Positions 19,392 to 46,961 of a stretch of DNA of 64,000 nucleotides are shown piece by piece. Origin of the DNA: Acidobacteriota bacterium (GTDB lineage Bacteria; Acidobacteriota; Terriglobia; 20CM-2-55-15); contig JAJEEE010000033.1 of the NCBI GenBank assembly GCA_022821145.1, positions 62,001 to 126,000 on the forward strand. The letters are read 5' to 3'. Position numbers and translations under genes: made by a program. The notes below the pieces were generated by a model that was not told where the DNA came from, did no database searches, and saw only the letters and a program-made list of their open reading frames with translations. The first letter of the stretch is position 1, and each line of letters opens with the position of its first letter.

Positions 19392-20546
19392 TTAATCCTG
19401 GGCCGGCGCCGGCACCGGGGGCGTCAGATCTTCGCACGCCTCCGGGTCGTAGCGCACGTTGGCCGCCATCAGGGTCTCCGAGCCGCTGTAGCCCTCGGTC
19501 AGATACGCCGGATCCTCGGCCGTGTATTCGCGCGTCAACGTCATCGCGTCCGCGCCGAGCGAGAAACGCTCGACGACGTGGAGCCCCGCGCTGTGCGGCG
19601 TCGTGCCCGTCAGCCTCCCGGGCATGAAGCCGACCGTGTCGACCACGAGGACGTCGTCCTCCCACCGGCCGATCGAGTGGCCGGCCCAGCCCGGCTCGAC
19701 GTCGTCCGGGTGCGAGGTCATGTTCATGTGAACCGTGCGCTCCAGGCCATGACGGCCATACTGGAGCAGGATCGTATCGACGCGTTGCGTGATGCGGTTG
19801 ACCGACTCCCCGCCCCAGTCCGAGACGATGCTCCCCTCGATGCACGAGCGTGCGGCGCGAGGCATTGCGGCGAGCGTCTCCATCGCGGCCTGTCCCTCCG
19901 GGGTCAGGCCGACGACGCTGCGGCCGCGAAAACCCGCCAGGGGATTGCGCGCCTGCTCGGCCTCGGGCGTGCCGCGCGCGCCCGGGATCTCGCGCTGGCC
20001 GTCGGGCACGGCGCCCGGGGCGAAATCGCCGACCTCGGACAGCGGCACCAGCGTCCCGTCGCGGCCTTTCGGATCCGTCATCACGCGCTGCTCGACCGCC
20101 CATTCGTCCGAGATGTTCGGCTCGCCGTTGGCGAGGCGCGCCGGCCGCGTGTTCGTCGTCGTCGCCGGAATGAGCTGGCCGTAGCGGTCCAGCGTCGCGC
20201 CGTCGGGGAAGATGAGCGTGCTCGTGTAGCATGCCAGCGGATCGCCGCGGTCGGGCGAGCCCTGGATCGTGATCCGCATGCCGGGCGGGAGCATGTCGGG
20301 CGTCCACCCGGAGCGGCGCAGGGTCGTGGCCGACCGCAGCTCGCAGCGGCGTTCGACGACGGCCCCGTCCTCGCCCGTGACGTTGAAGTGCAGCCACGAG
20401 TGAGGATTGACGAGGTCGAGTCGCGTGATGACGCCCGTGAACTCGACGTCCTCGTTCATCGCGAAGTTGCCGAAGCCGTGGTGGGCGCTGGCCGTGGCCG
20501 CCGCCACGAGGCCCGCGCCCAGCAAGGCCGCGAATCGTTTCTTCAT
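19392..20546 (-). CDS. Fusion: DUF6152 domain + S(I/V)GxWE...VERF domain, secreted
   Basis: The 384-residue product has a signal peptide cut after ASA (mature start HHGFGNFA), then a DUF6152 domain (about residues 22-130, with NPHSWLHFNV and RSGWTPDMLPPGMRITI). Its second domain contains RLANGEPNISDEW and the signature SIGRWEDDVLVVDTVGF followed by LHVVERFSL. In other genes of this window the two domains are separate neighbours, so this fusion links them functionally. I chose ATG 20546 because it opens a clean signal peptide 5-10 bases after a GGGAGG site; the frame stays open far upstream but only as antisense of the next gene. Confidence 0.8.
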   Translation of the reverse strand: MKKRFAALLGAGLVAAATASAHHGFGNFAMNEDVEFTGVITRLDLVNPHSWLHFNVTGEDGAVVERRCELRSATTLRRSGWTPDMLPPGMRITIQGSPDRGDPLACYTSTLIFPDGATLDRYGQLIPATTTNTRPARLANGEPNISDEWAVEQRVMTDPKGRDGTLVPLSEVGDFAPGAVPDGQREIPGARGTPEAEQARNPLAGFRGRSVVGLTPEGQAAMETLAAMPRAARSCIEGSIVSDWGGESVNRITQRVDTILLQYGRHGLERTVHMNMTSHPDDVEPGWAGHSIGRWEDDVLVVDTVGFMPGRLTGTTPHSAGLHVVERFSLGADAMTLTREYTAEDPAYLTEGYSGSETLMAANVRYDPEACEDLTPPVPAPAQD

Positions 20547-20578
20547 TTCAGCCTCCCGCCACCGTCCCGGCGATGGCG

Positions 20579-21652
20579 CTATTTCGATGACGCCGTTTCG
20601 ATCTCCGTCGCCAACTCGATGAATACCCGCGCGTAGTCTCCGTTGTCGAGTTGCGCCATGGCGAAGTGACCGCCGCCGGGTAGGCCCCGGTCCGGCAGAT
20701 AGACCGGGGTCGCGTCCACGCCGGCCTGCCGCCACGCGGCCGCCTGGCACCGGAGCGTCTGCGGACCGCCGCGCAGTCCCATCTCGGAGCCGGCCAGAAC
20801 GACCGGCACGTCGCCGAAGTTGACGAGCCGGCTGGGATTGTCGCCCTGCATCGCGCAGCCGTCCCTGTCGACGGCTTCGAAGTCTTCCGGCAAGGGCGGC
20901 TCGACGATCCAGTCGGCCATCGGCGGGACGCCGCCGAATCCGGCCGCGACCGGATGGCTGCCGGCGGCTTCGAACGCGATGATGCCGACCACGTTTTCCG
21001 GGTTGAGATCGGGCACGCGAAACGTGCTGCCGCCGCCGGCCGAGTGCGCGAACAGTATCGCCGGGCCAATCTCGTCGAGAAGGGCCGAGAGGCTCCGGGC
21101 CGCGAGCGCGTTGCCGCAGTACGGGGCCGTGGCCGAGCTGGCCGTCCAGCCGACGACCGCGTCGTTGGTCGGCGTCGGGGCGCCGCCGGGCCAGACCGCG
21201 GCGTCGGAGGTCGCCAGGCGCGAGATGACCGCCGAGTTGGCCGTGCCGACGGTCCCGTCGCCGCACGCCGCGTGGCTCTGGGAACGCCCGTGCCCGGGAC
21301 GGTCGACGACGTAGACGTCCCATCCGTCCGCGACGAAGTAGTCCGCCCAGCCGTCGCGCCCGTCGGGCGTCTCGAGCCAGTCCGTGCCCTGGCCGCCGCC
21401 GCCGTGGATCATCACGACGGCGTATTCGTGCCGCGCGTCGGCGGGCAGGAAGTACTGGACGAACATCGCGTTGACGACGTTGACGGAACCTCCGTCCGCG
21501 GCCTCGGTGGTATGCCCGATGAACCGCGCGCCGACGTCGCGGAGCACGAGCTCGCCGGCCTCGCCGCCGGCGAGCGCGGATGTCGCATAGCCGGCGGCGC
21601 CCATGACCGCGCCCATGGTCAGGTGCAGAATTCTTCTACGCATCGAAGTCAT
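20579..21652 (-). CDS. Secreted alpha/beta hydrolase
   Basis: The 357-residue protein has an export signal (about residues 1-28) and an alpha/beta hydrolase fold. The oxyanion loop is MIHGGGGQGTDW, the nucleophile elbow is FAHSAGGG (Ser), and a likely catalytic His is in GGGHFAM near the C-terminus. RPGHGRS follows the second core strand. Four Cys could form disulfides. Similar exported hydrolases act on esters; the substrate is unknown. It lies 32 bases upstream of the fusion gene and is probably co-transcribed with it. Confidence 0.78.
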   Translation of the reverse strand: MTSMRRRILHLTMGAVMGAAGYATSALAGGEAGELVLRDVGARFIGHTTEAADGGSVNVVNAMFVQYFLPADARHEYAVVMIHGGGGQGTDWLETPDGRDGWADYFVADGWDVYVVDRPGHGRSQSHAACGDGTVGTANSAVISRLATSDAAVWPGGAPTPTNDAVVGWTASSATAPYCGNALAARSLSALLDEIGPAILFAHSAGGGSTFRVPDLNPENVVGIIAFEAAGSHPVAAGFGGVPPMADWIVEPPLPEDFEAVDRDGCAMQGDNPSRLVNFGDVPVVLAGSEMGLRGGPQTLRCQAAAWRQAGVDATPVYLPDRGLPGGGHFAMAQLDNGDYARVFIELATEIETASSK

Positions 21653-21733
21653 CCTCCCGAGAAGTCGCTCCCGATGATCCGCCGTGATGCCTTGACTTGT
21701 GAGTCATTGAAGATATTTCGTATTGCCTATTGG

Positions 21734-21758
21734 ACCCGCGGCGTTCCTCGCCGCGGGT
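21734..21758. repeat. Perfect 10-bp inverted repeat (hairpin)
   Basis: ACCCGCGGCG, a TTCCT loop, then CGCCGCGGGT. A second, weaker 7-bp hairpin (CCTCCAT / ATGGAGG) follows at 21764-21786. They lie in the 206-base gap between two minus-strand genes, just beyond the stop of the 21859-22737 gene. No T-run follows on either strand, so this may be a factor-independent processing or attenuation structure rather than a standard terminator. Confidence 0.55.
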
Positions 21759-21858
21759 GGACGCCTCCATCGCGTAGCCATGGAGGTGGCGGAGCCGAGG
21801 CGTCAGTCCAAGAAAACAAGTCCCCTGACTCACGCTCACCAACTCACGTCACGCCACA

Positions 21859-22737
21859 CTAGTGCCGAATCTGGGAGCTGACTTCATCCAACTCGGTTTC
21901 GGTGCAGCTTCCCTGCTCCTGGATGATCGTCGGGTTGTCCGAGAGTTGCAGGATCCGCGGATGCATGACCCAGGGCTCGACGAGCACTTCCGGATCCTCG
22001 ACGGTCACTTCGTAAAGCAACTCGTTCCCGGTCCGCGTGAACCGTTCGACGACCCGCATCTGGTCGGAGTGAAAGAAGCCGCCGCGCGCCAACCACGTCT
22101 CGTCGGTGAACCCGATGGAGTCGAGGACCAGCGTGTCGCCGTCCCAACTCACCACCGGGCGCCCGAAGTACGAATAGGCGAATCGATCGTCTTCGGTATG
22201 CTCGGTCTTGTCGAGCGGTATCATCCGGAACTCGGCATACCCGCCGCCGCCGTCGAGCCCGCCGCGGTAGAGCATCGCGATGTCGTCGTCGCCGTGAAAG
22301 ATGCGGACCGGCGGGCCCTGCCGCGGCAGTCCGAGCGGGAGACAGGTCATCACCGGGTCGTCGCGGTTCGTCCACATGTCCAGCGCCTGGACCTGTTCCC
22401 AGTACTCGGGTTTGTACAGCGGCTTGTTCATGTCGAGCCGCGATGAGGCCATGAACGTGAAGTCGGCGCTCTGATTGGTCCACTCCATGCAGTTGTCCTG
22501 GAACGGACTGCACCGCCGGAACATCCCGCCGGGAACCCGTTCGGGGCCGCCCCCGGCCGACCGCCACGAGCCGGTCAGATCGGGCCGGCCGTTGGCGAGC
22601 CTCGGCGTTTCGGCGTCGGCCGCCGCCGGATCGAGCCCGGCGCCGAACTGCGCTCCCGCCGGCGCGGCGGCGAAACAGAACAGCATCGCCACCGTTGCCG
22701 CGATCGGCGCCTGGATGACTTGGCGTCTCTTTTTCAT
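21859..22737 (-). CDS. Secreted protein of the WxGD...VERF family
   Basis: The 292-residue product has a signal peptide ending PAGAQ. The family pieces are RLANGRPDLTGSWRSAGG, the signature SWDGDTLVLDSIGF and MRVVERFTRTGNE. Three Cys lie in the mature part. It is 14 bases from the gene at 22752, so they share a message. Related secreted proteins are numerous in acidobacterial and some proteobacterial genomes, but no activity is known to me. The TGSW-plus-beta content suggests a beta-rich binding domain; that is inference only. Confidence 0.7.
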   Translation of the reverse strand: MKKRRQVIQAPIAATVAMLFCFAAAPAGAQFGAGLDPAAADAETPRLANGRPDLTGSWRSAGGGPERVPGGMFRRCSPFQDNCMEWTNQSADFTFMASSRLDMNKPLYKPEYWEQVQALDMWTNRDDPVMTCLPLGLPRQGPPVRIFHGDDDIAMLYRGGLDGGGGYAEFRMIPLDKTEHTEDDRFAYSYFGRPVVSWDGDTLVLDSIGFTDETWLARGGFFHSDQMRVVERFTRTGNELLYEVTVEDPEVLVEPWVMHPRILQLSDNPTIIQEQGSCTETELDEVSSQIRH

Positions 22738-22751
22738 GAGCCCGACTCCTG

Positions 22752-23723
22752 TCAGTTGTCTGCCGCCCGTACGCTCTCCGGAACGGGCACGACGACGTAG
22801 ACCTGTCCGATCTCGGTCACCACGGTACGAAGGTCGCGGACGACGGCGCCGTTCCGACGCTCGACGATGGCGCCGGCGTACAGGGCTTCGATCCGGTGGA
22901 GGGGATTGTTATAGTCCCCGAAGCTGCCGTAGACGAACTCCGTCGTGTCGGTCCCGTGGTTGACCACGACGCGCTCGGGCAGGAAGCCGGCATCGAGCGT
23001 GGCCGTCGCGGTGGCGCCCTCGAGCCCGGGGATCGGAAACGTCAGCACGGGCCGCTCCCCTTGCCATTCCAGCGTCGTGACCGGTTCCACTCCGGCCGCC
23101 GCCTGAGCCTCGAGCAGCGTGGCCGGGTTCTGGCCGAACGACTCGGCAACCGGCACGCCCGCGGCGGCGGCGATGGCGGCCTTGGGCGCGCCGTGCGGGC
23201 TGGCCCAGAGGCGAATCCAGCGCTCCGTGTGCGCGCCCGGACGCGGCGTTGCCATACCCTCGCCCGGTACGATCTCCGCGCCGGGGATATCCTCGTCCCA
23301 GGCGTAGGCGCCGCTCATCGTCTCGATGTTCGTGTAGGTCTCGCCGCTCGGGAGCGCGCACCGAATTGCGGTCCGGTAACCGGGGATGCGGTAGTTGGCG
23401 CTGATGCGATACCCGGAATCTCCGAGCGCGCCGGGATCGGCGTCCGAGTACGACGCGAGCACGCAGGTCTGGCCGTCGACCTGGATCGTGCCCTCGGCCC
23501 GGTATTCCAGCGTCTGCACGAGTTCGGGCTCGGCCTGGCCCCGCAGCATCCCCATGTGCCACGCCCAGTTGAACAGGACAGAGGTCAGGTCCTGCGCTCC
23601 GGGTTCGGGCGTGTACGCGGCCCCGCGTCCTCCGAACTGCGCGCCGGCCGGCGTCGGGCCGGTCATCGCCATGGCCAGAACGAGCATGGACGCCGCGACC
23701 GACCGTCGAATACCCATCACCAT
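22752..23723 (-). CDS. Secreted protein resembling the N-terminal domain found before some metallo-beta-lactamases
   Basis: The 323-residue protein has a signal peptide ending PAGAQFGG. I do not recognise a named family with certainty. The opening QTLEYRAEGTIQVDGQ, the middle RWIRLWASPHGAPKAAIAAA and the late AVVRDLRTVVTEI recall the substrate-sensing domain that precedes metallo-beta-lactamase hydrolase domains in secreted multidomain proteins. No metal-binding HxHxD is present, so it would be a stand-alone copy. It sits within the minus-strand accessory operon between a DUF6152 gene and a VERF-family gene. Confidence 0.5.
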   Translation of the reverse strand: MVMGIRRSVAASMLVLAMAMTGPTPAGAQFGGRGAAYTPEPGAQDLTSVLFNWAWHMGMLRGQAEPELVQTLEYRAEGTIQVDGQTCVLASYSDADPGALGDSGYRISANYRIPGYRTAIRCALPSGETYTNIETMSGAYAWDEDIPGAEIVPGEGMATPRPGAHTERWIRLWASPHGAPKAAIAAAAGVPVAESFGQNPATLLEAQAAAGVEPVTTLEWQGERPVLTFPIPGLEGATATATLDAGFLPERVVVNHGTDTTEFVYGSFGDYNNPLHRIEALYAGAIVERRNGAVVRDLRTVVTEIGQVYVVVPVPESVRAADN

Positions 23724-23750
23724 TCCCTGCGTGCCGGTTTCACGAGGCCG

Positions 23751-24152
23751 TCAGTCGATGTCGAGATCGATCCGGCGGTCGCTCAACTCCATCCGCCGGA
23801 TAAATCCCGCCGGGTTTCCGTTTCTTGCGGGAAGGGCGGTGATCCTGAGAAACTCGCCCGGCTTGATGGAGTCCCGGTTGATACCGGCCCGGCCAAGCAC
23901 CTGCGTCGAGGCGGTAGTCAGGACCCACTCGACCGTCGAGCCGTCCGCGTCCGGAACCTCGAGAACCAGGTTCGCGTGCGGGTTCCTGTAGTTCAGTTTC
24001 TGGAGCCGGCCTTCAAGGACGATCTCCGTGTTCAGGTCGTAGACGCCCGCCACGGCGTGATGTGCCTGCAGGTCGGCGCCGGCGGTCAGGAATCCGCCCA
24101 GCGCGACCAGGATTCCAATCGATCCCGTCCGTCGAATCGTCCGTCCGTTCAT
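23751..24152 (-). CDS. DUF6152 secreted protein
   Basis: A compact 133-residue member. The signal peptide is predicted to be cut after DLQA30, giving the mature N-terminus HHAVAGVYD. The body has LNYRNPHANLVLEV (NPH motif) and RAGINRDSIKPGEFLRI, matching the GWxRxxLKxGD pattern of the family. It is 27 bases upstream of the 22752 gene. Downstream of the esterase stop there is a 122-base gap before this gene, which may hold its own promoter. Confidence 0.8.
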   Translation of the reverse strand: MNGRTIRRTGSIGILVALGGFLTAGADLQAHHAVAGVYDLNTEIVLEGRLQKLNYRNPHANLVLEVPDADGSTVEWVLTTASTQVLGRAGINRDSIKPGEFLRITALPARNGNPAGFIRRMELSDRRIDLDID

Positions 24153-24274
24153 CGCTGCTCATCCCCCATTCGAGGCTGTTTCGCTCGATGCTAACAACGA
24201 TTGCGCCACAATGCGATCAGTTCCTCGCAGCTTCTTCGTTACGCTCGCCGAGGGCGTCCACACCGGGTCTGGCC

Positions 24275-25252
24275 TCAGTTCCGACCGGCGCCTCCCGGCC
24301 CCCCTCGGCCGCGTCCACCGCGGCCGCCCCGGCCGCCGCCGAAGCTCGGATACGGCTCCGGGTCGACGATCAGGCGATCGAGGAACAGGTCGATCGAGTG
24401 AGCCATCACGTCCACCGCGTCGAGCGCGCTGTTGTCGAACGCGTGCGCCGCCCCCTGGATCAGCGTCAGCGCCGCCGGCACACCGGCGTCATGGAGCCGA
24501 TTGACGAAATCGATGCTCGACGACATCGGCACCGTGGTGTCGGCCGTGCCGTGAATGAAGATCGTCGGCGCGAAGTTCTCGCCGATATAGGTCGTCGGCG
24601 ATGCGGCCTCCATGGCCCTCGCGCGCTCGTCCTCGGTCAGGTCGTCCGGGAACAGTCCGCCGGCGGTCGCGGCGCTCGTGAGCGGATAGACGCCGATGCC
24701 CGCCTGCACATCCGAGCTGACCCCGCCGTTGCCGCCGTCGCCCTCGAACTCGTCCATGCCGTTCGTGCCGGCCGCCAGCAGCGAAAGCATGCCGCCGGCG
24801 GAATAGCCGGCCACGGCGATCTTGTCGGCGTCGACGCCGATGTCGGCGGCGTTGGCGCGCACCCAGCGAATCGCCGCCTTGGTGTCATGGATTTGCGCCG
24901 GCCAGGAGCCTTCGCTCTGCAGGCGGTAGTTCGCCGAGACGTTGGTGTATCCGAGCCGTCCCAGCGCCCGCGCGTCGTTCACGATGTATCCGGCGTTCTT
25001 GTTGCCGACGAAGAAACCGCCGCCGAACAGGTGGATGACGGCCATCCGCTTGGGCGTGACGCCCTCGGGCGGGTGATAGACGTCGAGCAGGAGATCGATG
25101 TCTCCGCCCCGGCCGAAGACGATGTCGGAATCGACTCGCGGGTCGCCGGAGTCCTGCGCGCCGGCCGTCGACCATGGAAGACTCGCCAGCGCCGGGGCCG
25201 CGGCCACGGCGCCCGTCGCCCGTACGAAACGTCGTCTATTCATCTGCTTCAT
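24275..25252 (-). CDS. Tat-exported alpha/beta hydrolase (esterase/lipase type)
   Basis: The 325-residue protein starts MKQMNRRRFVRATGA, a twin-arginine signal. The fold is that of acetyl-esterase/feruloyl-esterase-like hydrolases: oxyanion motif HLFGGGFFVG, nucleophile elbow VAGYSAGGM (Ser), acid in HGTADTTVP and catalytic His in GAAHAFD. A Gly-Arg tail (about 20 residues rich in RGG) ends the protein; this low-complexity tail is odd for the family. It lies 25 bases after the tannase gene, so an ester substrate shared between the two is plausible. Confidence 0.82.
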   Translation of the reverse strand: MKQMNRRRFVRATGAVAAAPALASLPWSTAGAQDSGDPRVDSDIVFGRGGDIDLLLDVYHPPEGVTPKRMAVIHLFGGGFFVGNKNAGYIVNDARALGRLGYTNVSANYRLQSEGSWPAQIHDTKAAIRWVRANAADIGVDADKIAVAGYSAGGMLSLLAAGTNGMDEFEGDGGNGGVSSDVQAGIGVYPLTSAATAGGLFPDDLTEDERARAMEAASPTTYIGENFAPTIFIHGTADTTVPMSSSIDFVNRLHDAGVPAALTLIQGAAHAFDNSALDAVDVMAHSIDLFLDRLIVDPEPYPSFGGGRGGRGGRGRGGPGGAGRN

Positions 25253-25277
25253 CCCGTGGTCCTCCCGCGCGCGGCGT

Positions 25278-26846
25278 TCAGAAACCTTCGCCGCACACGA
25301 AGTTCGCCGCGTCATCCGTGCTCCCGGTTCCGTCGTATCGGGCCACCATCGGATAGGGACACAGCGGCCGCGTGCGCGTGACGCCGTCCACCGAACGCAT
25401 GGCCGTCAGCGTTTCCGGCGCCTGGCCTTCCTCGACCCAGGCCAGGAGCGCCTCCATCAGCCCGGTCGGAGCCGGCCCGGCGCCACCCCCGCAGTGTCCG
25501 ACTCCGGGCGCCATGAACAGCCGGATGAACTCGGCGGCCGCTTCGGCGCCTCCCATCCGCTGCTGGACGCGCGTGTAATAGTCGACGGCGCCGTCGGCGC
25601 TGATCAGCGGGTCGGCCCAGCCGTGCCACACGATCGCACGGCCTCCGCGGTCGCGGAACGCCGTCAGGTCCGGGTTGTCGGTTCCGATGACGGCGCCGAA
25701 CTGCTCCACGGATTGTTCCCAGAACCGCTCGTAGCTGTCGAGCGTCACCGTGGTCCAGTCGAATTCGGGATCCTGCGTCAGGAAGTACCGGAACCAGTCC
25801 AGGGAAATGCCGAACGCCTGGGCTTCGGGCGGATCGCCGCGCGCGCTCCACAAGGCGTTCAGCGGGGCGCCGGGGGGCAGTCCGTACCAGAGGAAGCCGC
25901 CGTCCTGGCGCCGCGGGCCCTCCCAGAGCCGGCGGATCAAGTCGGCGTCGGCCGCGGTGAAGGCGCCGCACTCACCGGCCGTCGCGCCGACGAGAGCGGC
26001 GGGATCGTACGCGCACAGTCCGGGGTCCCCGATCACGCCGTCCTCGACGCCGTCGATCCCGTCGCAGGACGCGATCGCGGCTTCCGTGGCCGCCGTCAGC
26101 TTGCACGCGGGGACGGGATTGCCCTCGATGTTCATCAGCACGGCGCCCCACATCTGCTGCACGTGCAGCTTGGGCCAGTTGATGGCGGGCGCGCCCGACA
26201 GGATCCCGTCGTAGTCGGCGGGGTAACGCTGCGCTTCCATCAACCCCTGGCGGCCGCCGGTCGAGCACCCGTTGAAGTAGGAGTACCGCGGCGCCACGCC
26301 GTACATCGCTTCGGTCAGGGCCTTGCCCGTGACGGTCATTTCGTGGATGCCCACGTGCCCGTTGTCGCGGATCAACTGCCAGTCCAGCCGCCCGTCCTCG
26401 CCGAGCGCGAAGCTGCCGCTCCCGCCCTCGTGCCCGGTGTCGGTCGCGCCGGCGGCGTAGCCCAACGCCGCGGGTTGATCGATGCGGTTGGGGCTGCCGC
26501 CGGAGAATCCGCCGCCTCCGGTTCCCATGAAGCGGCCGTTCCAGTTCGATGTCGGGATGGCCACCCAGATCCGGACGCTGTCGCCGGCGGGCGGATGCGT
26601 CGTGATTGCCGTGACTTGGCACACTCCGGGGTTGTCCGGGTCGAGGGCGGCCGATTCGATCGTGGTGTCGGGCAACGTGACCGACGCCAGGCTTTCGCAG
26701 GAGCGTACGGGGCTGGCGTCCGCGATCAGGGGTTCGGGAGGCGCCGCGGCGGGTCCGCCGCCCCCGCGTCCCTGACCGTGAGCGACGATCGGGATCAAGG
26801 TCGACAACACAAGACATGCGAAGGATGTCGGTGTGAGGCGGCTCAT
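25278..26846 (-). CDS. Tannase/feruloyl esterase family protein, secreted
   Basis: The 522-residue enzyme has a signal peptide (ending AHGQ) and the tannase fold. Cys in VRSCESL, CQVTAI, NGCSTGG, the CDGIDGVEDGVI calcium-binding-like loop, HCGGG and PLCPYP follow the family. The catalytic Ser is in FNGCSTGGRQG; Asp is in WHGWADPLI and His in GVGHCGG. These enzymes split gallate or hydroxycinnamate esters of plant or algal polyphenols. ATG 26846 opens the signal peptide. It is the first gene of a minus-strand operon with an esterase, DUF6152 and VERF-family genes. Confidence 0.88.
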   Translation of the reverse strand: MSRLTPTSFACLVLSTLIPIVAHGQGRGGGGPAAAPPEPLIADASPVRSCESLASVTLPDTTIESAALDPDNPGVCQVTAITTHPPAGDSVRIWVAIPTSNWNGRFMGTGGGGFSGGSPNRIDQPAALGYAAGATDTGHEGGSGSFALGEDGRLDWQLIRDNGHVGIHEMTVTGKALTEAMYGVAPRYSYFNGCSTGGRQGLMEAQRYPADYDGILSGAPAINWPKLHVQQMWGAVLMNIEGNPVPACKLTAATEAAIASCDGIDGVEDGVIGDPGLCAYDPAALVGATAGECGAFTAADADLIRRLWEGPRRQDGGFLWYGLPPGAPLNALWSARGDPPEAQAFGISLDWFRYFLTQDPEFDWTTVTLDSYERFWEQSVEQFGAVIGTDNPDLTAFRDRGGRAIVWHGWADPLISADGAVDYYTRVQQRMGGAEAAAEFIRLFMAPGVGHCGGGAGPAPTGLMEALLAWVEEGQAPETLTAMRSVDGVTRTRPLCPYPMVARYDGTGSTDDAANFVCGEGF

Positions 26847-43688: not shown

Positions 43689-43698
43689 GACCGCGAGT

Positions 43699-43707
43699 TG
43701 ATACACT
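43699..43707 (+). promoter_or_regulatory. Extended -10 box upstream of the CMD-like gene
   Basis: TGATACACT (TG 43699-43700, hexamer TACACT 43702-43707) precedes the ATG at 43741 by about 33 bases, with a predicted start near 43714 and AGGGGGTGG as ribosome site. It may give the last gene of the run its own transcript. Confidence 0.4.
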
Positions 43708-43740
43708 GCCGGCGATACGACGAACAGGGGGTGGCTACAG

Positions 43741-44424
43741 ATGATGGCGCACAAGATTCTCGGGACGGTATCGGCGAGCGTGTTGTTGTTCGCCGCGGCC
43801 GCGTTCGCCCAGACACAAGCTTCGTCCGGCGACAGCCGGACCCTTCCCGACGACATCGATCCCGAATCGCTGTCCCGGTTGCCCGCGCTCAGCCGCGACG
43901 ACCTCGACGACCACGGCAAGGCGGTCTACGACAAGCTCATTGGCGACGGGCCGCGGCCCCTCACAGGTCCGCGCGCCTTCACCTTGTACAGTCCCACGCT
44001 CGCCGAAGGGTACGCGCTGATCAACGACTACCTGCGCTACAACGGCGTGCTGAGCCCGCGCCACACCGAAGTCGCCATCCTGGTCGCGGCGTGGGAGATC
44101 CGGCAACAGTACGAGTACTCGGCGCACGAGCCGGCGGCGTTGCGTTACGGCGCGCCGCAGGCCGTCATCGATACGATCAAGTTCGACCGGGAGCCCGAGG
44201 GGTTGAGTCCCGAGGAGACCTTGATCATCAACTTCGGCCGCCAGATCATGCGCGAGCACCGGCTCGATTCCGCGCTCTTCGCCGAGGCCGTCGAGTACTT
44301 CGGCGAGCAGGGCGTCGTCGAGCTTGCGACCGTCATGGGCGACTACGTGATGGCGGGACTCGTACTGACGGCGATCGACCAGCACCTGCCGCCCGACCGG
44401 CCGGCGTTGCTGCCGGAGCGGTAA
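43741..44424 (+). CDS. Exported carboxymuconolactone-decarboxylase-like protein
   Basis: The 227-residue product has a signal peptide ending AFAQ. The mature part has YDKLIGDGPRPLTGPRAF, then LRYNGVLSPRHTEVAILVAAWEIRQQYEYSAHEPAALRYG, the CMD/AhpD-like helical core. The usual AhpD CxxC pair is absent (QQYEYSAH), so it is not a thioredoxin-like peroxidase; it resembles decarboxylase/lyase members acting on lactones of aromatic catabolism. An exported form is uncommon. It is the last plus-strand gene before a TA graveyard. Confidence 0.82.
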   Translation: MMAHKILGTVSASVLLFAAAAFAQTQASSGDSRTLPDDIDPESLSRLPALSRDDLDDHGKAVYDKLIGDGPRPLTGPRAFTLYSPTLAEGYALINDYLRYNGVLSPRHTEVAILVAAWEIRQQYEYSAHEPAALRYGAPQAVIDTIKFDREPEGLSPEETLIINFGRQIMREHRLDSALFAEAVEYFGEQGVVELATVMGDYVMAGLVLTAIDQHLPPDRPALLPER

Positions 44425-44557
44425 CGCTATCGACGGTTCCGGAGACCGACGGCGGTCCCGCGACCTGGCCGCCGTGCGGGTTCAGTGGCGGCTGCTAACA
44501 AGCCTGTGTTGATTGCAACGCAATCACCATGTAGTCTTGAAACAAGGAGGCGTGGCC

Positions 44558-44800
44558 ATGGCGAGTATCACGATCCGCCGCCTCGACGACGACGTCAAGT
44601 CCCGACTTCGGGTCCGGGCCTCCGCCAACGGTCGGTCGATGGAAGAGGAGGCGCGGGTTATCTTGCGCGACGCGGTCGGGCGGGAAGCCGAACCTGTGAA
44701 CCTGGCCAGTTTCATCCACGAGTGTTTCGCGCCTTTCGGAGGGGTCGAGTTGGAACTGCCTCCGAGCGAACCGATGCGCGAACCTCCCGATTTCAGTTGA
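44558..44800 (+). CDS. FitA/VapB-type antitoxin, orphaned
   Basis: The 80-residue protein opens MASITIRRLDDDVKSRLRVRASANGRSMEEEARVIL, the ribbon-helix-helix of FitA antitoxins. AAGGAGG lies seven bases upstream. The C-terminal third would wrap the VapC/FitB toxin, but the toxin gene that should follow at 44810 is broken after six codons. The antitoxin is therefore alone, and could still act as a repressor. Confidence 0.82.
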   Translation: MASITIRRLDDDVKSRLRVRASANGRSMEEEARVILRDAVGREAEPVNLASFIHECFAPFGGVELELPPSEPMREPPDFS

Positions 44801-44809
44801 GGCCCGCGG

Positions 44810-44881
44810 ATGTTCGTTCTCGACACCAAATCTTCGATCCATGGGAAGGCGCGTGAGCGAGGCCTGGGCGGCCCTGCATGA
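44810..44881 (+). pseudogene. VapC/FitB toxin stump (first six codons only)
   Basis: ATG 44810 starts nine bases after the antitoxin stop and reads MFVLDT, exactly how PIN toxins begin (VLDTNVL...). The next residues, KSSIHGKARERG, do not belong to a PIN domain, and the frame stops at 44881. The rest of the toxin is missing. Confidence 0.6.
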
Positions 44882-44945
44882 GACGGCGCTCGGGTTGGCC
44901 GAGGCGGGCGTCATGGCGAAGCGCGGCCTCGACACGGTCGCTTAG
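44841..44945 (+). pseudogene. HigA-type antitoxin stump
   Basis: A 34-codon frame overlapping the VapC stump reads SEAWAALHETALGLAEAGVMAKR and then a short unrelated tail to TAG. The HETAxxLxxAGVMxK block is the N-terminus of HigA-like HTH antitoxins, normally followed by LREFD and the helix-turn-helix, which are absent. It seems a second TA locus was cut and joined to the first. Confidence 0.5.
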
Positions 44946-44969
44946 GACTCCCGTACGGCGGGTTCCGAT

Positions 44970-45335
44970 TCAAGGCCGGCTGCAGCGATACGAATCCGCG
45001 GAGTCTTCCGGACCGTCGACGTAGCGCGGATACTCCGGATAGGAGCACATCGGCAGGCTGCGCTCGCCGGCCGTCACGATCGGCGCCATCGCGCCGTCGA
45101 CGCTGCAGTGGGCCGGGGTCCGCCCGGCGGCCGCGCGCCAGACGGGCGGCGCAACCGACACGCCGGAAACGGGCTCGCCGATGAGGTCCGTGTCGATGGA
45201 GACGCCCAGCCGGGCGGCCGTGCAGCCGCTTTCCGCGATCTCGATGGGCGGTTCGGCTTGGGCGGCCGCTTCCATGGTCGCGCCCGGCCACATGAGAGCC
45301 GCGGCCAGGGCCAGACCCGGAACGCGGCGGTTCAC
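44970..45335 (-). pseudogene. Tannase-family gene with a large in-frame internal deletion
   Basis: The 121-codon frame starts at GTG 45335 (GTGA overlap with the previous stop) with a signal peptide. It has the N-terminal tannase segment SGCTAARLGVSIDTDLIGEPVSG with PAHCSVDGAMAPI. It then jumps directly to a tannase C-terminus, LPMCSYPEYPRYVDGP...ADSYRC, equivalent to RPLCPYPMVARYDGTG...ANFVC in the intact gene at 25278. About 400 residues, including Ser, Asp and His of the catalytic triad, are missing without loss of frame. The product, if made, is a short secreted disulfide-bonded remnant. Confidence 0.65.
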
Positions 45336-45769
45336 GGCGCCGGCGCTTCCAGGCCGTTCGCGTTGCCGTAGGTCTTCCCGTCGGCCGTGATCGCGCCCCG
45401 CATGTTCCCGGCCGGGCGGCCGTCGGTCAGCGGGTTGGTCCGGACGGTCACGCGGTCGCCGACCCGCCAGAAGTTGGGGGATACGCCTTCCCGGCGCAGG
45501 AGCGAGGGCGAGCTGAGCTCGAAACCCCACTCGGTGACCGCGCCGTCATCGTCGCTGACCGTCACGTACAGCCACGAATGCGGATTCAGGTACGCGAACT
45601 CGCGGACTTCGCCCGTCAGCACCAACTCCACCTCGCGGTCGAACATTGCGGAGGAGTGGTGGGCGGTCGCCGCCGGAGCGAGCAAGACGAGCGTCATGCC
45701 CACGGTTGCCCATGTCCAGTGCGTGTGTCTCTTCACGTTTCTCGCCCCCGGTGTGGTCCGACCCTTCAT
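45332..45769 (-). CDS. DUF6152 secreted protein
   Basis: A 145-residue member from ATG 45769, which overlaps the upstream stop (ATGA). A GTG at 45736 with GGGGGCGAG nearby would give a 134-residue form with a more usual signal peptide. Cleavage after ATA leaves HHSSAMFD. The body has FAYLNPHSWLYVTV and LRREGVSPNFWRVGDRVTVRTNP and ends NANGLEAPAP. It lies between a VERF-family gene and the tannase remnant, the same gene set as around 19392-26846. Confidence 0.85.
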   Translation of the reverse strand: MKGRTTPGARNVKRHTHWTWATVGMTLVLLAPAATAHHSSAMFDREVELVLTGEVREFAYLNPHSWLYVTVSDDDGAVTEWGFELSSPSLLRREGVSPNFWRVGDRVTVRTNPLTDGRPAGNMRGAITADGKTYGNANGLEAPAP

Positions 45770-46830
45770 TGGTGAATGTAGTCCTCGTTGAACCAGTAGT
45801 CGGGATTCGTGATGTCCGGTTTCTCGCCGGGCGCGTACTGGCTGACGATCCCGTCGTCGGTGATGTACCAGTTGGACCCTTCGACGCAGTCCCACTGGTG
45901 CGGCCAGACGCGTTCCCTGAGCTCCGCCGTGCGGTCGTCTTCCTTGTAGAACGCGGCGACCGTGTGCCAGGGCTCCACGAAGGTCGGGTCGTACATCGTG
46001 ATCTCGATCTCGATGCGGCCCAGCGTGTCCGGATCCAGCGGCTCGACGCGCCGCCACCGCTCGACGACCTCCATCTGGTTCGTCTGGCGCGGCATGTTGC
46101 GCTGGAGGATGCCTTCCTTGATGCCGCGCGTCCAGATCGTCAGCACGTCCTCGTCCCAGAAACCGATCGAGTAGCCGAGCCACTCGTGGGTCAGCCACTC
46201 ATCGGACGGGTGCGGCCGGCCGTCGGTGAACACGCGGCGGAACTCGTTCATCATCTCGCTGCCGAGGAGGACCTTCTCGGGGGTCAGAAAGTGCTCCCGG
46301 TAACCGTACTCGGTCACCCAGCGGGGGAAGTTCGGCGGGAGGCAGAACGAGATCGGGTCGATCGCATGGCCCTCGCGCCACATGCGCGCGTCGAAGAGGA
46401 ACTGCTCGCCGGCTTCCGGCGTCAGGCGCGCGGCCATGCCCTCGGTCGTGGACGCCAACCCCACGATCGCCAGCTCGCCCGTGTCGTTGTCGGTTCCCCA
46501 ATGGCCGGACCAGTCCGGCAGCGTGTCCTGGGCGTGGACCGTCGGGCCGCCGCGAGCCCGGGCGTCGGCCAGCAGGGCGTTGTAGTGCTGTTCGGCCGAC
46601 GCGTAGCCGCATGGGCCGCCCGGCAGCTCGAACGATCCCCACGACGTCGTGAATTCCCGGCGTGCGGAAATGCTCTGGCTGGTGCCCAGATCGGGATACT
46701 GTTCCGCCAGCGGGACACAGTCCGCCGCGCCGGTCCCGGTCGTGTCCTGCGCGTGCACGTCTTCCGAGCCGATGGCGGCCACGATGGCCATGGCGAGCAA
46801 GCCAAGCCCGGCCTTGCCGTAGAAACTCAT
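45766..46830 (-). CDS. Secreted VERF-family protein, divergent member
   Basis: The 354-residue protein has a signal peptide ending DVHAQ. It keeps DTLPDWSGHW, a family-like opening, and SIGFWDEDVLTIWTRGI with MEVVERWRRVEP, a divergent form of the signature (WDED for WEGD, VERW for VERF). YDPTFVEPWHTVA and a C-terminal NPDYWFNEDYIHQ follow. Start 46830 is preceded by GGGGAGG. Its stop overlaps the DUF6152 ATG. The divergence suggests a different ligand from the other members. Confidence 0.72.
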   Translation of the reverse strand: MSFYGKAGLGLLAMAIVAAIGSEDVHAQDTTGTGAADCVPLAEQYPDLGTSQSISARREFTTSWGSFELPGGPCGYASAEQHYNALLADARARGGPTVHAQDTLPDWSGHWGTDNDTGELAIVGLASTTEGMAARLTPEAGEQFLFDARMWREGHAIDPISFCLPPNFPRWVTEYGYREHFLTPEKVLLGSEMMNEFRRVFTDGRPHPSDEWLTHEWLGYSIGFWDEDVLTIWTRGIKEGILQRNMPRQTNQMEVVERWRRVEPLDPDTLGRIEIEITMYDPTFVEPWHTVAAFYKEDDRTAELRERVWPHQWDCVEGSNWYITDDGIVSQYAPGEKPDITNPDYWFNEDYIHQ

Positions 46831-46961
46831 GCTGCCTCCCCGGGGCACGCATCGCCAGGGTGCCCGCCAAGGTCAAAGAACGGATGACTCGTGCATGGTA
46901 TTGCCGGCCGAGTTCGAGGTCAACGCCACATGCACGATTCGGCCGCGGGCCGGCCGTGCCG

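Follow-up and report, generated by a model that had tools for sequence, protein, structure and literature searches.

A gene of 121 codons on the reverse strand of the window (the whole stretch of 64,000 nucleotides analysed here), at positions 44970 to 45335, is very probably the loss-of-function remnant of a secreted alpha/beta hydrolase of the tannase/feruloyl-esterase family, left by a single deletion of 1344 bp that probably arose by slippage. Most likely it is a recently inactivated gene, that is, a young pseudogene, and one that is ordinary in kind. The product, P0001 (121 aa), is read from a GTG start codon that overlaps the stop codon of the preceding gene by GTGA, in a frame free of stops; frame, start overlap and sequence agree with the description in the first-pass annotation. 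Its N-terminal piece, codons 1-86 at positions 45078 to 45335 (reverse strand), begins with a putative signal peptide (approximately residues 1-26, by inspection) and continues as CTAARLG...PAHCSVDGAMAPI; its C-terminal piece, codons 87-121 at positions 44970 to 45077 (reverse strand), consists of VTAGERSLPMCSYPEYPRYVDGPEDSADSYRCSRP and the stop codon. Four cysteines are left in the product, two before the join and two after it. Upstream on the same strand lie a DUF6152 (PF19649) gene, at positions 45332 to 45727 as translated without a fixed start codon, and a gene for a secreted VERF-motif protein of 360 aa with no Pfam family above cut-off, at positions 45766 to 46848, such that the coding-strand order of the cluster is VERF, DUF6152, tannase.

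The two ends can be recognized for what they are by comparison with the closest sequenced relative among the genomes searched, a member of the same genus (G001; MAG of Acidobacteria bacterium isolate p16x33bins.48) in which the region is approximately 88% identical to the window. Both ends of the remnant match, at approximately 80% identity, within one open frame of 521 aa on the sister contig JAJEDW010000132.1. This frame begins at the end of its contig, and the gene's first 40 residues are encoded at the edge of a second contig, directly 3' of the orthologues of the VERF-like and DUF6152 genes; two sister contigs, C67 and C200, thus end within the gene, and the synteny shared with the window suggests that both fragments are parts of a single gene. 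Both upstream neighbours are intact in the sister genome (91% identity for the VERF-motif protein, approximately 90% for the DUF6152 protein, which directly precedes the tannase there too), and a RidA-like gene and an amidase lie downstream of the tannase locus in both genomes. With neighbours shared upstream and downstream, the locus is syntenic between the window and its sister. In the alignment, the N-terminal piece matches the ends of C67 (residues 1-38) and C200 (residues 49-86), with 82% identity over residues 49-86, and the C-terminal piece matches the last 35 residues of the orthologue, with 85% identity over residues 82-121, so that the tannase origin proposed earlier for both ends stands and chance similarity is rejected, because both align with one syntenic gene.

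The region downstream of the remnant differs between the two genomes. A segment of approximately 1.28 kb in the window (43689 to 44965), carrying a carboxymuconolactone decarboxylase-like gene and an antitoxin gene, is absent from the sister genome, where just approximately 47 bp separate the tannase and the RidA-like gene, reflecting either an insertion in the window or a deletion in the sister. Within positions 44513 to 44945 on the forward strand, the antitoxin gene, which encodes a FitA-like ribbon-helix-helix protein (PF22513, E=6e-19), precedes a few opening codons, and no more, of what resembles a VapC toxin start (MFVLDTK...), perhaps a second truncated gene beside the remnant.

The intact sister orthologue, P0002, is a full member of PF07519 (E=1.4e-88, profile positions 1-489 of 490), and over its whole length its structural model agrees with structures of feruloyl esterases, MHETase and tannase (Z 27-34; Z 33.8 over 441 residues for 3wmt). 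By comparison, P0001 scores 13 bits against the family's gathering cut-off of 29.8, and its residues 90-118 correspond to positions 460-489 of the 490-position Tannase profile at an E value of 0.047 that is weak alone. In the structural model of P0001, residues 85-121 can be overlaid on residues 557-602 of MHETase at 1.3 A. Thus the C-terminal 30 residues do resemble tannase C-termini, a likeness whose absence the first-pass annotation had named as grounds for abandoning its reading.

When the window gene is compared codon by codon with its sister orthologue, exactly 448 codons (1344 bp) are missing: the gene tracks the N-terminal part of the orthologue as far as AMAPI and then resumes with the C-terminal part from VTAG. 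The missing segment corresponds to residues 39-486 in the numbering of the partial sister frame, and this alignment to a syntenic intact gene bears out the earlier description, in which the catalytic middle was lost by a clean in-frame deletion. The nucleophile Ser157, together with Asp402 and His440 in the same numbering, all fall inside the deleted codons, and each of the 59 full-length relatives compared (58 homologues and the sister) has this catalytic Ser, Asp and His without exception. The catalytic residues are gone, as had been claimed, and the remnant lacks the Ser-Asp-His set that a PF07519 tannase or feruloyl esterase requires. Homology to an intact syntenic orthologue together with the loss of essential parts, here the triad, is one of the marks of a pseudogene. 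A disulfide next to the active-site Ser and His (C224-C529 in MHETase) is typical of the family, being present in more than 80% of members, but is not obligatory (PMC6461665), and no Cys was found before the Ser or after the His in any of the 59 sequences, P0002 included. The membership of P0002 in PF07519 stands without this disulfide, which is a typical and not a defining feature. The same combination, an intact triad without the typical active-site disulfide, marks a tannase subfamily spread over many phyla, comprising L024:14000-15565 (reverse strand) and the homologous loci L032-L102.

The breakpoints themselves offer a plausible route to the deletion. The junction in the window, at positions 45077 to 45092 on the reverse strand, reads GCGATGGCGCCGATCG and is the one remaining copy of an imperfect 16-bp direct repeat. 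In the sister gene the sequences at the breakpoints are GCGATGGCGCCGATCG and GCAATGTCACCGGTGG, which are identical at 11 of 16 positions and lie in the same frame, encoding AMAPI and AMSPV. When 20,000 in-frame deletions were placed at random in this gene by simulation, just 1.9% reached a similarity of at least 11/16 at their ends, and replication slippage between the imperfect repeats is therefore a likely, though not proven, mechanism; the microhomology is imperfect, and its origin by chance is only moderately unlikely.

No other assembly examined so far carries the deletion. Among 76 homologous loci compared (from Acidobacteriota, Verrucomicrobiota, Planctomycetota, Bacteroidota and others), 58 carry full-length frames of at least 557 aa, the rest being short owing to contig ends, to breaks in the frame or to the start that was chosen, and in none of the 58 was a gap of more than 13 residues found across the deleted segment. 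No conserved short form turned up in a search of 60 relatives, in any of the 11 genomes analysed from the order or at the 76 homologous loci, and scanning genome_contigs with the remnant itself detected no relative. The missing middle was not found elsewhere in the window's own genome either, where the best paralogue is 38% identical and none of the seven other tannase genes (counted by hand) exceeds 43% identity to any stretch of P0002. A lone tannase C-terminus of 25 residues (CSYPAYPKYVSGPSGSAGSYVCAAP; L030:7470-7565, forward strand) occurs in the relative G010, which has an intact gene elsewhere; this is another tannase stump, and at 25 residues only it was rejected as a second case of the same reduced form. 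One public record consulted (L065), titled Bordetella parapertussis (MAG HRS-HS12-bin-180), apparently corresponds to a genome of the window's own class, G013, and its title is probably wrong.

How long ago the deletion occurred can be approached from the substitutions that separate the two genomes. Synonymous divergence from the sister is similar in the three genes: 0.32 for the remnant, 0.31 for the VERF-like gene and 0.35 for the DUF6152 gene. Between the species, omega is 0.29 for the mature ends and 0.14 for the neighbours, but the value for the ends mostly reflects the time before the deletion. Over the 73 mature positions that remnant and sister have in common, identities to 31 homologues total 1163 for the remnant and 1159 for the sister, and of the 21 positions at which conservation is at least 90%, the remnant has changed one and the intact sister gene one. 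The remnant thus shows neither faster substitution than the intact gene nor decay. Had it been free of constraint for more than approximately 30% of the time that its lineage has been separate, too many replacements would be predicted (Poisson P <0.05, taking six changes on the window lineage); without constraint, the deletion would fall within roughly the last 30% of the lineage. This prediction, and the similar closeness of the two genes to their homologues, imply that the deletion is recent or that the remnant has stayed under constraint. For a remnant so short and apparently so recent, the data do not distinguish these readings, of which a recent deletion is the simpler.

The possibility of constraint bears on one of the rival explanations, in which the two tannase ends fold into a small disulfide-stabilised domain and persist as a secreted protein with a binding or regulatory role. 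This is very improbable, and that the fused ends now form a small secreted protein with a use of its own is judged highly unlikely. The retained frame, start overlap and putative signal peptide, the lack of stops and a substitution rate no faster than in the intact sister would all suit such a protein, but an undecayed sequence is also what a recent loss predicts, just as continued selection on the remnant would equally be expected to produce it. The four remaining cysteines would suit it too, and may correspond, as two pairs, to two of the disulfides of MHETase. MHETase has five disulfides, which are highly conserved in the family (PMC7568301). An AlphaFold model of the remnant (mean pLDDT 80) exceeds 80 in local pLDDT along most of the mature chain, but this local confidence stems from an alignment of the full enzyme, a pTM of just 0.46 gives no confident packing of the two halves, and the sole credible structural match is that of the C-terminal 37 residues to MHETase. 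A new small fold was rejected, the credible matches being solely MHETase C-termini (Z 2.4), and a match to a BamACDE complex (Z 2.2, 4.1 A) was taken as chance. Such a form occurs in no other genome examined. The first-pass annotation had left the choice between a fresh pseudogene and a reduced secreted binding protein; the pseudogene fits better, given that no relative carries a shortened version and that the substitutions agree with a deletion of recent date, and the binding protein is without positive support. It is very unlikely that the assembler joined two ends, or captured a minority strain variant in a population mostly carrying the full gene: the genome is assembled in 89 contigs and the sister assembly breaks within the same gene, but the repeat copies, judged on the sister sequence, share identical runs of only approximately 3 bases, far below any assembly k-mer, the join is exactly in frame within a contig that runs on at both sides, and the assembly, at 99% completeness, contains no copy of the missing middle.

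It had been proposed that the same gene order recurs in an intact operon at 19392-26846, but the order there is reversed: the 19-27 kb cluster reads, in coding order, tannase, BD-FAE hydrolase, DUF6152, unknown, VERF-like, hydrolase, DUF6152. The co-occurrence of DUF6152 with tannase at both places is real, but as a linkage it means little, because the genome carries 88 DUF6152 matches. By hand count, a DUF6152 gene lies within 3 kb at four of eight tannase loci, against a background of 88 matches in 4.2 Mb, a mild enrichment and not a fixed pairing. The 88 matches (PF19649) in this genome, G000, as against none in 14 control genomes, are a striking expansion of a family whose function is unknown.

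The history that best accounts for the remnant would begin with one 1344-bp deletion in the lineage of the window organism, probably by replication slippage between short, imperfect, same-frame direct repeats, which would have taken out residues 39-486 with the entire catalytic triad. Left with an open frame and a start that overlaps the DUF6152 stop codon, the gene may still yield a short secreted peptide, which would be unable to hydrolyse esters by the family's mechanism. The peptide would be without function, and the deletion recent. An open, coupled, apparently secreted frame of 121 aa would pass in annotation as a hypothetical protein when it is really an esterase stump, and it offers a clear case of deletion endpoints captured before decay.

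Among known systems, the remnant resembles the tannases and feruloyl esterases of PF07519 (MHETase, AoFaeB and fungal tannase) in that its two ends align with the ends of the family and its intact sister orthologue is a full member in fold and catalytic Ser-Asp-His, but it differs in lacking any catalytic residue, the hydrolase core and the lid. A second known kind to compare is that of bacterial pseudogenes that arise by internal deletion between short direct repeats, where a single deletion would be expected to keep the frame by chance in one case of three. A literature search on pseudogenes from in-frame deletion between direct repeats found nothing useful. The remnant differs from such pseudogenes in keeping its frame and in showing no later decay as yet, and is like them in its single deletion, in the imperfect repeats at its breakpoints and in its absence from relatives.
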